Of a stretch of DNA of 35,950 nt, positions 14,822 through 17,790 are shown piece by piece. The notes beneath the pieces are model-generated. The model saw only the letters and a program-made list of their open reading frames with translations, searched no databases and was not told the origin of the DNA. How positions within the stretch are numbered: position 1 is the stretch's first letter; each line of letters opens with the position of its first letter. Source of the stretch: Gammaproteobacteria bacterium (GTDB lineage Bacteria > Pseudomonadota > Gammaproteobacteria > Ga0077536); assembly GCA_016874535.1 (NCBI GenBank), contig VGUA01000019.1:1-35950 (forward strand). Direction: 5' to 3'. The translations under genes and the position numbers were made by a program.

Positions 14822-15364
14822 ATGTCGAAAACATCCGTCATCAAGAAGCTGCTGGCGACCGCTGCGGCCATCGCGACCCTCACCGGCTGCGCCGGGCCCT
14901 CCCCTCAGGATTACGCGGCAGCCACCCCCACGCTCGATCTCGCGCGCTACTTCAACGGGCAGGTGGAAGCCTGGGGCATGGTGCAGGAGCGCTCCGGCAA
15001 GGTGATCCGGCGCATGAACGTGAAGATGGACTGCCACTGGGAAGGCGACACCGGCACCCTGGATGAACACTTCACCTATGACGATGGCAGTACGGAGCGG
15101 CGGGTGTGGACGATACGCAAGGAGGGCAATGCCTACACCGGCACCGCGGCCGACGTGGTGGGCGAAGCCAAGGGTTCAGCTGCCGGTAATGCGCTCAACT
15201 GGCGCTACGTGCTCGCCTACAAGGGAGAGGACGGCGTGGTGAAGCTCGACATGGATGACTGGATGTGGCTCATCGACGAGCGCACCTTGGTCAACAAGAC
15301 CCGCTTCAGCAAGTTCGGTATCGGCTTTGGCGAGGTGACCCTCTTCTTCCGCAAGGCGGAGTGA
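14822..15364 (+). CDS. DUF3833-type lipoprotein
   Basis: A predicted lipoprotein of 180 residues. Lys residues and a hydrophobic stretch lead to the lipobox LTGC, with the lipidated Cys at residue 23. The mature part has FNGQVEAWGMVQERSGKV, a DDGSTERR segment, and ends in KTRFSKFGIGFGEVTLFF. This matches what I know of the DUF3833 family, whose biochemical role is not established. The start has a GAGGAA site 8-9 nt upstream. The upstream frame to 14642 is unlikely to be translated. The last 144 bp of this gene recur in part at 15861-15924 and 16691-16834, on either side of higBA (see repeats). Confidence 0.88.
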   Translation: MSKTSVIKKLLATAAAIATLTGCAGPSPQDYAAATPTLDLARYFNGQVEAWGMVQERSGKVIRRMNVKMDCHWEGDTGTLDEHFTYDDGSTERRVWTIRKEGNAYTGTAADVVGEAKGSAAGNALNWRYVLAYKGEDGVVKLDMDDWMWLIDERTLVNKTRFSKFGIGFGEVTLFFRKAE

Positions 15365-15461
15365 GAGGTCGGGGGCAGCCCCACTCTTGCGGGGTGGGCA
15401 AGAGCGGCAGCCCGAGCTCGCCCTCCCGGAATCACTTCTGCGGGATGAGGCGAACTTGCAG
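15301..15461 (+). repeat. Direct repeat unit A1 (lipoprotein tail + spacer + xre tail)
   Basis: This 161-bp segment recurs at 15861-16022. It covers the last 64 bp of the lipoprotein gene, the whole spacer, and the last 30 bp of the convergent xre gene. The two copies differ at one base within the coding tail. A few differences and a one-base indel lie just after the stop. They are then identical for about 73 bp, with one substitution shortly before the end. The spacer contains the hairpin CTCTTG-N9-CAAGAG (15384-15404), possibly a terminator between the convergent genes although no T-run follows. Confidence 0.9.
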
Positions 15462-15743
15462 GTCGCAGCCTACCGCCTGAGCATAACGGCGCAGTGTCCC
15501 CAGAGAGGGACTGTGTTTACCCGCCCCCTCCAGCCGCGAGACCGCACTCTTGGTCGTGCCCATGCGCTCTGCCACGGCATCCTGCGTGAGACCCGCGCGG
15601 GCGCGTGCTTTCAAGAGCTGGTCAATCACCTGGCATTCCAGCTCCAAGGCATCGTAAGCCTCATCAAAGCCTTTCCTGGTACGAGCCTTCTCCAGAAAGG
15701 CCTTATGGTCGTGACGCACGGGAGAATGTTTCAAATCAGACAT
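15432..15743 (-). CDS. Xre-family antitoxin-like regulator (orphan)
   Basis: A 103-residue protein with a helix-turn-helix of the Xre/Cro type at about residues 52-73 (LTQDAVAERMGTTKSAVSRL). The C-terminus is LQVRLIPQK. The N-terminal half (EKARTRKGFDEAYDALELE) resembles antitoxins paired with RelE/Gp49-like toxins. In such modules the toxin lies just upstream. Here only a 20-codon frame with a possible toxin N-terminus remains, overlapping the ATG. It is convergent with the lipoprotein gene and its last codons lie in repeat A1. It probably represses its own promoter through the palindrome at 15804-15821. The function as an orphan is unknown. Confidence 0.82.
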   Translation of the reverse strand: MSDLKHSPVRHDHKAFLEKARTRKGFDEAYDALELECQVIDQLLKARARAGLTQDAVAERMGTTKSAVSRLEGAGKHSPSLGTLRRYAQAVGCDLQVRLIPQK

Positions 15744-15795
15744 GAACCAGCCGTCTCGGGAGCGGCGCGTGGAAGTATTGGATGTCGTAAGCCAC
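15736..15795 (-). pseudogene. Probable remnant of RelE/Gp49-like toxin
   Basis: A GTG-initiated frame of 19 codons plus stop (VAYDIQYFHAPLPRRLVHV) sits where the toxin of this antitoxin family belongs. Its stop overlaps the antitoxin start. The first eight or so residues look like the N-terminus of RelE/ParE-type Gp49-like toxins. The rest of a roughly 100-residue toxin is missing, which suggests an internal deletion. The predicted promoter would start transcription at or beside the GTG. The match is short, so the assignment is tentative. Confidence 0.4.
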
Positions 15796-15801
15796 GCCTG
15801 A

Positions 15802-15830
15802 AGGTTAGCGTTTCTGCTAACTCAGAGCAA
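15802..15830 (-). promoter_or_regulatory. Predicted autoregulated promoter of the xre module
   Basis: On the minus strand TTGCTC (15830-15825) and TAACCT (15807-15802) are separated by 17 bp. A perfect palindrome GTTAGC-N6-GCTAAC (15804-15821) lies between and over the -10 box. This is the usual place for an Xre antitoxin operator. The promoter boxes are weak matches; the palindrome is clear. Confidence 0.5.
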
Positions 15831-15860
15831 GCGCCTGGAGGCCAGCCGTTTTTTTCCAGA

Positions 15861-16022
15861 CCGCTTCAGCAAGTTCGGTATCGGCTTTGGCGAGGTCACC
15901 CTCTTCTTCCGCAAGGCGGAGTGAAAGGTCGGGGGGCGGGCCTACTCTTGCGGGGTGGGCAAGAGCGGCAGCCCGAGCTCGCCCTCCCGGAATCACTTCT
16001 GCGGGATGAGGCGAACCTGCAG
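15861..16022 (+). repeat. Direct repeat unit A2 (lipoprotein tail + spacer + xre tail relic)
   Basis: Second copy of the 15301-15461 unit. It begins abruptly after a T-run, inside the lipoprotein reading frame (RFSKFGIGFGEVTLFF). It keeps the stop and the hairpin CTCTTG-N9-CAAGAG (15945-15965), and ends with antisense codons for LQVRLIPQK, the end of an xre gene whose remainder is absent. Directly after it comes the 3' end of higA. The unit is therefore a relic of a second lipoprotein-xre junction. It has one substitution against A1 in the 64 coding bases. Confidence 0.88.
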
Positions 16023-16036
16023 CAGCCCACTACCCG

Positions 16037-16357
16037 TCAAGCAGCATCAAACCTCACCGACTTGATGACGGACAGTGCTTTCGTGGCTTTCGCCACTTGC
16101 CGTGCCTGCCAAAGGTCGTAGGCAGCCTGCTGGGCCAGCCACACTTCGGCAGCGCCGCCGTGGTCCCGGCCCAACCAGCGTTCGATGCGCAGCGCCATGG
16201 CCGGGCTGATGGCCGCGCGCCCATTGAGCACCTTGGACAATGTGGTTCGGTCGACGCCCAGCTGGGCGGCTGCCTCACTCACCTGCAGACTCAGGGCCGG
16301 CAGGATATCGTCCCTGAGGGTGAGGCCAGGATGAGGGGGATTGAACATCGAATTCAT
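16037..16357 (-). CDS. higA: HigA-family antitoxin
   Basis: The antitoxin of a type II HigBA module. It neutralises the HigB mRNA interferase and represses the operon. I use ATG 16357, giving 106 residues starting MNSMFNPPHPG, which is the HigA-family N-terminus. It has a TGAGG ribosome-binding site 4-5 nt upstream. A GTG at 16363 is also possible. The helix-turn-helix spans VSEAAAQLGVDRTTLSKVLNGRAAIS in two contiguous helical segments (about residues 27-52). The toxin gene precedes it by 20 nt, the typical toxin-first HigBA order. The pair lies antisense to the lipoprotein gene between two tail repeats, which points to acquired DNA. Confidence 0.92.
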   Translation of the reverse strand: MNSMFNPPHPGLTLRDDILPALSLQVSEAAAQLGVDRTTLSKVLNGRAAISPAMALRIERWLGRDHGGAAEVWLAQQAAYDLWQARQVAKATKALSVIKSVRFDAA

Positions 16358-16377
16358 GAGCACCTCAGTGGTAATCC

Positions 16378-16656
16378 TCAGTGATAGTCTTTGTAGTCGA
16401 CCAAGATGGCATCGCCGTTTTCAAACGCGAAGGTGAGGCGCCAGTTCCCGTTTACGCTGACGGCCCAGTGGTCGGCCAGGCCGCCCTTGAGGGAGTGCCA
16501 TCCCCAACCGGGTCGGTTCATGTCTTCAGGTCGCGTGGCGACATCCAGCGCAGATAGTTGCCGAGCGAGGCGTGGGGCATGTTTCGGTTTGATCCCCGCC
16601 CGTGAGCCGGTCCGAAAAAATCGCTCGATGCCCTTGTGCCGGAAGCTTCGAATCAT
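16378..16656 (-). CDS. higB: HigB-family toxin (RelE superfamily)
   Basis: The toxin of the HigBA module, expected to cleave mRNA on the ribosome. The open frame extends upstream to 16824 through the repeated lipoprotein tail, but ATG 16656 gives the family N-terminus MIRSFRHKGIERFFRTGS and 92 residues. Other conserved parts are ARLARQLSALDVATRPEDM, LKGGLADHWAVSVNGNWRL and the C-terminal ILVDYKDYH. It looks intact. Almost no leader lies between the predicted promoter and the ATG. The stop is followed after 20 nt by higA. Confidence 0.92.
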   Translation of the reverse strand: MIRSFRHKGIERFFRTGSRAGIKPKHAPRLARQLSALDVATRPEDMNRPGWGWHSLKGGLADHWAVSVNGNWRLTFAFENGDAILVDYKDYH

Positions 16657-16663
16657 GAGACTC

Positions 16664-16692
16664 AATGTAGCGCGTGGCGCTACACGCCGCAA
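16664..16692 (-). promoter_or_regulatory. Predicted higBA promoter and HigA operator
   Basis: A perfect inverted repeat TGTAGCGC-N3-GCGCTACA (16666-16684) lies just upstream of higB. It overlaps a predicted minus-strand promoter: TTGCGG (16692-16687), 17-bp spacer, TACATT (16669-16664). HigA-type antitoxins bind such palindromes to repress their operon. The predicted transcription start (about 16657) is next to the higB ATG, so the message may be leaderless. The -35 box straddles the start of the lipoprotein-tail repeat. Confidence 0.6.
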
Positions 16693-16849
16693 GGGCGAGG
16701 ACGGGGTGGTGAAGCTCGACATGGATGACTGGATGTGGCTCATCGACGAGCGCACCTTGGTCAACAAGACCCGCTTCAGCAAAGTCGGTATCGGCTTTGG
16801 CGAGGTCACCCTCTTCTTCCGCAAGGCGGAGTGAAGAGGTCGAGGGCAG
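16691..16849 (+). repeat. Third copy of the lipoprotein gene 3' end
   Basis: This segment matches 15221-15378: the last 144 bp of the lipoprotein gene (KGEDGVVKLDMDD to the stop), plus about 14 bp beyond the stop with a one-base indel. There are five substitutions in 144 bp. Four are synonymous third-position changes (GGA/GGC, GGC/GGG, AAG/AAA, GTG/GTC) and one changes Phe to Val (TTC/GTC). It has no start codon of its own. It ends the toxin-antitoxin array; unrelated sequence follows. Confidence 0.92.
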
Positions 16850-16962: not shown

Positions 16963-17790
16963 TCAAGCCTGACGCTGGGCGCGGCGGCGGGCAACAAAAG
17001 CGCCCATCAGGCCCACGCACACCAAAGCGAGTGCACCCGGCTCCGGCACCGTGCCGCGATAGGCGGGGTAGTAAGCTGCATCCACGTCATCTTCGCTGAG
17101 ACCTCCGATGGAGAGGCCGATATTGGGGCCAATTTCTGCCGCCCCAAAGGCAAACTCAGCTATGGCGGAAGTACCGTCAACAGCCGCAAACACACTGTCC
17201 CAAGCGCCCGGTCCGCCGCCGGGGATCTGTTGCTCAATCTGGCTCACGGCCTTGGAACTCCACAAAAGCGCGGCCCCTGCCTCACCAGTCGGCGCTCCCA
17301 GCGGCGAGCAGCCCAACCCACCGCAAGAGATACCCAAGCCCGTATCGTCAGAGTTGTTGGGAGTGGTCCCGCCCAGCCGAGGGCCTACGAAAGCCGCCAG
17401 CCAATCCACGATGTCACCTGAGCCGTTCGTGCCTGCCGCGAAGTAGGCAAATCCCTCGGTGTCGTCGAAGGTGCCATTGCCGCTGGAACGTCCGTCATCG
17501 AAGGTCCAGCCAGTAGGACTGACAGCGCCGAAGCCGAGACCGTTACCCAGCGGCGCGGCAAGGGTCATGGACCAGGACAAGGCCTCGCTCGTCTTGTAGG
17601 AGCCGGGCACATTGCCGCCGTCAAAAACGGTCACATAATTCTGCCCGGTGAAGGAATACGTGTTGGTGCCGCCGTTGAAAACGAACCCGTCTTCCGCCTG
17701 CGGGACGACAAGAAGGCCAAGGGCACCGGTCAAGGCCAAAGCCTGCCCGCGTAGCCATGTACCTGACGTGAAACGACTGCGATTTTGCAT
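16963..17790 (-). CDS. PEP-CTERM sorting domain-containing protein
   Basis: A predicted exported protein of 275 residues. An N-terminal basic and hydrophobic signal peptide (RGQALALTGALGLLV) is followed by a Gly/Ser/Thr-rich secreted domain of no recognised function. The C-terminal sorting signal has VPEP at residues 248-251, then a hydrophobic helix and ARRRAQRQA. Exosortase is known to process such signals, usually in bacteria making exopolysaccharide; no exosortase gene is in this window. ATG 17790 is preferred over the longer frame from 17835 because GGAGTGAG lies 9 nt upstream and the signal peptide begins there. A sigma-54-type promoter precedes it. Confidence 0.88.
   Translation of the reverse strand: MQNRSRFTSGTWLRGQALALTGALGLLVVPQAEDGFVFNGGTNTYSFTGQNYVTVFDGGNVPGSYKTSEALSWSMTLAAPLGNGLGFGAVSPTGWTFDDGRSSGNGTFDDTEGFAYFAAGTNGSGDIVDWLAAFVGPRLGGTTPNNSDDTGLGISCGGLGCSPLGAPTGEAGAALLWSSKAVSQIEQQIPGGGPGAWDSVFAAVDGTSAIAEFAFGAAEIGPNIGLSIGGLSEDDVDAAYYPAYRGTVPEPGALALVCVGLMGAFVARRRAQRQA

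Follow-up and report, generated by a model that had tools for sequence, protein, structure and literature searches.

Toxin-antitoxin modules flanked by long copies of a host gene 3' end in a gammaproteobacterial genome

Introduction

Restriction-modification genes have been described as inserting with a long and variable duplication of the target (Nobusato et al. 2000; Furuta et al. 2010, via PMC3874152, PMC3031569 and PMC1643837), and such long repeats make tandem amplification through unequal crossing-over possible (PMC3031569). The passage on long duplications in the review PMC3874152 covers restriction-modification systems only. Toxin-antitoxin (TA) modules have been connected with repeat-flanked DNA in superintegrons, which they stabilise (Szekeres et al. 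2007, cited in PMC3031569). How small TA modules that carry no recombinase of their own enter chromosomal sites is an open question.

The locus described here lies in a stretch of 35,950 nucleotides from a Gammaproteobacteria bacterium (contig VGUA01000019.1), referred to below as the window. As in the restriction-modification insertions outlined in these sources, a predicted addictive pair is located between long, variable target repeats of the order of 100 bp, and a close relative has the empty site. The difference is in the cargo, which consists of type II TA modules instead of the restriction-modification genes of the original description, two of them in tandem and one with its toxin deleted. 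TA genes are predicted to counter the loss of repeat-flanked DNA here, as they do in superintegrons; however, the superintegron repeats, as cited, are attC sites moved by an integrase, whereas the repeats at this locus are copies of a host gene end. No description of the same arrangement around TA modules was found in the literature searched, which omits most subscription journals.

Results

Organization of the locus and its insert-free counterpart in a sister species

The intact host gene at this locus encodes a DUF3833 lipoprotein of 180 aa (14822-15364, + strand; Pfam DUF3833, E = 1.9e-65), and its orthologue in the sister species (genome G003, record L021) is 89% identical. In the sister species a PEP-CTERM protein gene follows within about 28 bp and then PrsT, with no TA genes between the lipoprotein and PEP-CTERM genes. 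Homology of the window with this record stops at 15371 and restarts at 16984. Behind the last tail copy in the window are the same native neighbors as in the sister species, with the PEP-CTERM gene at 16963-17790 (- strand). Because the sister species has these neighbors and no TA genes, the insert can be delimited as 15379-16689 (1311 bp) and the duplicated target as 15220-15378 (about 159 bp). It was originally predicted that one of the tails had arrived from a related strain with the TA DNA; the empty site supports arrival of the TA DNA as an insertion, but the silent-site argument for a related-strain origin of the tail fails, as detailed in the next section.

Target copy 1 (15220-15378, + strand) consists of the genuine 3' end of the lipoprotein gene and the 14 bp that follow its stop codon. 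Copy 3 (16690-16848, + strand) is a lipoprotein tail that lacks a gene body and continues into the native downstream sequence. Self-comparison of the window aligns 15220-15364 with 16690-16834 as a 145-nt repeat at 97% identity, and the similarity reaches about 14 bp beyond the stop codon, for a total of about 159 bp. The same comparison reveals the last 75 nt of the tail once more at 15861-15935. This copy 2 (15861-16022, + strand) is made up of 64 nt of lipoprotein tail, a spacer and the last ~30 nt of an XRE antitoxin gene. It repeats 15301-15461 at 96%, and the repeat between copies 1 and 2 (~161 bp) therefore reaches ~97 bp past the stop codon, through the spacer and into the XRE gene. 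E-values of the tail repeats near 1e-70 exclude chance, and a whole-genome search located the tail sequence at just these three places in the 3.08-Mb genome.

The XRE gene lies between copies 1 and 2, and a higBA pair between copies 2 and 3. The XRE gene (15432-15743, - strand; HTH_31/HTH_3) encodes an orphan antitoxin of a Gp49-XRE module. Its homologue in another genome, G004, is located directly behind a Gp49 toxin gene with the palindrome GTTAGC-N6-GCTAAC in front, and this palindrome, a putative operator of the module, is conserved in the window at 15804-15821. Alignment to the intact G004 module identifies the 5' end of the Gp49 toxin gene at 15757-15790 (- strand), where the first ~12 codons are kept and ~240 bp of the toxin are deleted. 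There is thus no complete Gp49 (PF05973) toxin gene beside the XRE gene in the window, and a profile search of the window's own genome gave no PF05973 match. The orphan antitoxin and its palindrome (15432-15821), left after deletion of the toxin, are a possible anti-addiction remnant.

In the second module, a HigB toxin gene (16378-16656, - strand, 92 aa; Pfam HigB-like_toxin PF05015, E = 2.2e-19) precedes a HigA antitoxin gene (16037-16363, - strand, 108 aa; TIGR02607 antidote_HigA, 87.9 bits against a cut-off of 47.7). A palindrome before higB, GTAGCGC-GTG-GCGCTAC, was read directly from the sequence at 16667-16683 and is a putative operator. This toxin-before-antitoxin order with a palindrome in front is that of known higBA type II modules, and neutralisation of the toxin is predicted. 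Nothing in the module itself is different; the novelty is the flanking duplication. It is noted that a 142-aa open reading frame (ORF; 16406-16834, + strand) runs antisense through higB with copy 3 in its frame, probably by chance.

The insert has no terminal inverted repeats, the longest word common to both ends being 5 nt, and a transposon bounded by such repeats was rejected as a candidate. No recombinase was recognised in the insert. The window was also inspected for attC sites at the borders and had none there, the borders being lipoprotein gene sequence. A hairpin or terminator in the spacer was considered as a recombination signal, and its folding is no better than that of shuffled sequences (z = -0.57 and -0.99). 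The 9-base word TGGCGCTAC is present both in the host gene, shortly before the duplicated segment (15200-15208), and in the higBA palindrome beside copy 3 (16675-16683). From its placement, TGGCGCTAC could have acted as a joining microhomology.

Sequence differences among the tail copies

Alignment of 15221-15364 with 16691-16834 confirms the five predicted differences exactly, four silent third-position changes and one Phe/Val replacement. Given as copy 1/copy 3, they are A/C at 15226 (GGA/GGC), C/G at 15235 (GGC/GGG), G/A at 15313 (AAG/AAA), T/G at 15314 (TTC/GTC, the Phe/Val replacement) and G/C at 15337 (GTG/GTC), with those at 15313 and 15314 next to each other. The middle copy (15861-15924) is indeed a mosaic, having AAG TTC as in copy 1 and GTC as in copy 3.

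To polarise these changes, the sister species was used as the outgroup. The changes at 15226 and 15235 occurred in copy 1, the latter assignment being less certain as more distant relatives vary at that site. Since copy 1 is the live gene, silence of these two changes is expected, and coding constraint on copy 3 need not be assumed. The AAGTTC to AAAGTC change is in copy 3 only, alters the protein and is probably one event. The GTG to GTC change is common to copies 2 and 3 and is seen in neither copy 1 nor the sister species. This leaves the dead copies with a single silent change, the one that copies 2 and 3 have in common, and with the protein-altering double change at neighboring sites. Without constraint, four third-position changes out of five have P = 0.045, which is marginal, and two of the five sites adjoin each other. 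The mostly silent pattern had been read as a sign that both tails evolved as ends of working genes; with such a marginal value, and with the live gene accounting for two of the silent changes, that reading does not stand, and silent-site constraint on copy 3 was rejected after polarisation. We infer from the sequences that copy 3 is a dead gene end and not the end of a working gene.

The original prediction also called for examining how the copies group relative to other lineages. With the sister species as the comparison, copies 1 and 3 fall together, sharing 17 states against it; copy 1 agrees with the sister at 3 sites and copy 3 at 2. Copies 1 and 3 are also sisters in the tree, although support is modest (0.67, from 144 sites). 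Under the refuting condition set with the original prediction, this grouping, as judged against the sister species, favors local duplication over arrival of a tail from a related strain.

Similar arrangements around other TA modules

At least four further TA modules of the genus are flanked in this way. Among 17 HigB loci of the genus, four, including the window, are located between copies of a host gene end. The other three higBA pairs are surrounded by copies of a nitroreductase tail (L036, 159 bp at 97%), a glycosyltransferase tail (L041) and the tail of a HigA-like gene (L040). A fifth HigB locus (L031:1125-1916, genome G005), a higBA pair beside a RidA-like gene, was not counted as a gene-tail case, its surrounding repeats being attC-like; it resembles an integron cassette. 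Of nine Gp49 loci one, a Gp49-XRE module, lies between tail copies of a metallo-beta-lactamase-fold gene (L134, 333 bp at 92%). In G004 (contig C53:79267-81063) it is the head of a reductase gene, 400 bp at 90%, that is duplicated around an Unstab_antitox/RelE-like pair, whose putative RelE-like toxin behind the antitoxin was read from the frame only. The repeats differ between loci in length (159, 159, 217, 333 and 400 bp) and in their borders.

Repeats spanning the central gene were found at 5 of 31 HigB loci (one of them attC-like) versus none of 30 acetyltransferase controls. No gene-tail duplication was found at 30 PIN loci, the 30 acetyltransferase controls or 14 HigB loci outside the genus. 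Loci L120 and L126, with repeats resembling dispersed intergenic repeats, were left out of the counts.

The content of gaps between local low-copy repeats was recorded in 1.55 Mb of G004, an assembly of 60 contigs with 100% completeness and 0% contamination. Three of 15 such gaps hold a HigB, Gp49 or PIN toxin where 0.29 would be expected (about 10-fold, P = 0.0034), in a scan that is not fully independent, three loci having been known beforehand and the contigs partly picked for TA hits. Gaps between dispersed repeats hold such a toxin in 0 of 10 cases. A fourth low-copy gap contains the Unstab_antitox antitoxin between the 400-bp gene-head copies and a fifth a Uma2 nuclease behind a radical-SAM gene; some other gaps hold an unassigned ORF or dispersed repeats. 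In a similar scan of 0.71 Mb of genome G001, the sole repeat not read as tandem paralogues flanks higBA.

Several of the G004 gaps are recorded here as separate observations. The Uma2-family nuclease gene is enclosed by 160-bp duplicates of a radical-SAM/SPASM gene end (L165:12459-13988; C49:192459-193988), and this insertion mode may extend beyond TA modules. Copies of a nitronate monooxygenase gene end, 129 bp long, enclose a 1.3-kb insert with a 122-aa ORF, a candidate selfish or addictive gene (L186:2869-4463; C21:202869-204463). An ORF of 259 aa that has no Pfam match is flanked by 189-bp repeats, 98% identical (L187:6922-8410; C21:226922-228410).

Discussion

The insert, the long target copies on both of its sides (about 159 bp in the window, 159-400 bp at the other loci) and the empty site in the close relative resemble the insertions known for restriction-modification genes. 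By sequence comparison, we file the TA case as an apparent variant of that insertion mode, new in its TA cargo as far as the literature searched shows. The explanation we consider probable is that TA DNA inserted behind the lipoprotein gene and that its target, the 3' end of that gene, was duplicated over a long stretch (~159 bp). We read the probable succession of events and the likely origin of the individual tails from a comparison with the sister species, rather than with another strain of the same species. Foreign TA DNA would have been captured and the target copied on both sides, leaving both neighbor genes intact. Two modules, one in a Gp49-XRE allele and the other in a higBA allele, may have reached the same spot, and unequal crossing-over between the tail copies of these alleles would then have placed them in tandem. 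Such a crossover would account for copy 2 carrying the 3' end of the XRE gene and sharing GTC with copy 3. Recombination between direct repeats would ordinarily collapse them; loss of a module, however, is predicted to lead to poisoning by the longer-lived toxin, and we propose that repeat-flanked insertions persist because loss of the module is lethal.

It is rather unlikely that copy 3 (or copy 1) was the end of a working lipoprotein gene in a related strain and entered together with the TA DNA through homologous recombination within the gene tail. The insert is horizontally acquired, and GTC in copies 2 and 3 but in neither copy 1 nor the sister species is what one donor allele, possibly of the same species, would give. 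However, the argument from silent sites is lost on polarisation, AAGTTC to AAAGTC in copy 3 matches no outgroup among those examined, and copies 1 and 3 diverge by 3.5% where their distance to the sister is 13-14%, which would require a donor of the same species or very near to it. Tandem duplications are frequent in bacteria, and copy borders that vary among loci would suit a plain tandem duplication of the gene tail, with the TA DNA dropped between the copies later. This order of events is nevertheless improbable: two independent rare events would be needed at each of at least five loci, and the gaps hold toxins at about ten times the expected frequency.

We give very little weight to a site-specific mobile element (tyrosine recombinase, integron cassette or transposon) that targets gene 3' ends. 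Some known elements do insert at the end of a gene and leave that gene restored, and the attC-like repeats around higBA at L031 may be a case of this kind in the genus. Against this, repeat length and border vary by locus, one target is a gene head and not a tail, and the insert has neither inverted ends nor a recognised recombinase. A misassembly that merged insert-bearing with insert-free strains is scarcely credible; the window comes from a 189-contig draft genome and the assemblies appear draft, but the copies differ in sequence and flanks, so that real reads must underlie each, and the pattern recurs in the complete, uncontaminated G004 assembly.

Insertion with duplication of the target remains our preferred reading, although such repeats were lacking at all 14 HigB loci outside the genus and some G004 gaps hold contents other than TA genes. 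A wider proposal, which we put forward tentatively and think possible rather than probable, is that type II TA modules spread through chromosomes by a route that needs no transposase and duplicates 100-400 bp of target on both sides, that addiction protects the unstable repeats, and that the repeats act as crossover points that stack further modules in tandem. If long target duplications are regular and kept by addiction, they would form a readable scar from which the empty site, the target and the order of arrival could be reconstructed. The idea of addiction guarding unstable repeats would become directly testable, and TA modules would be tied to the mode of mobility proposed for restriction-modification genes. 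The arrangement suggests a way in which addictive genes settle and stay in chromosomes.
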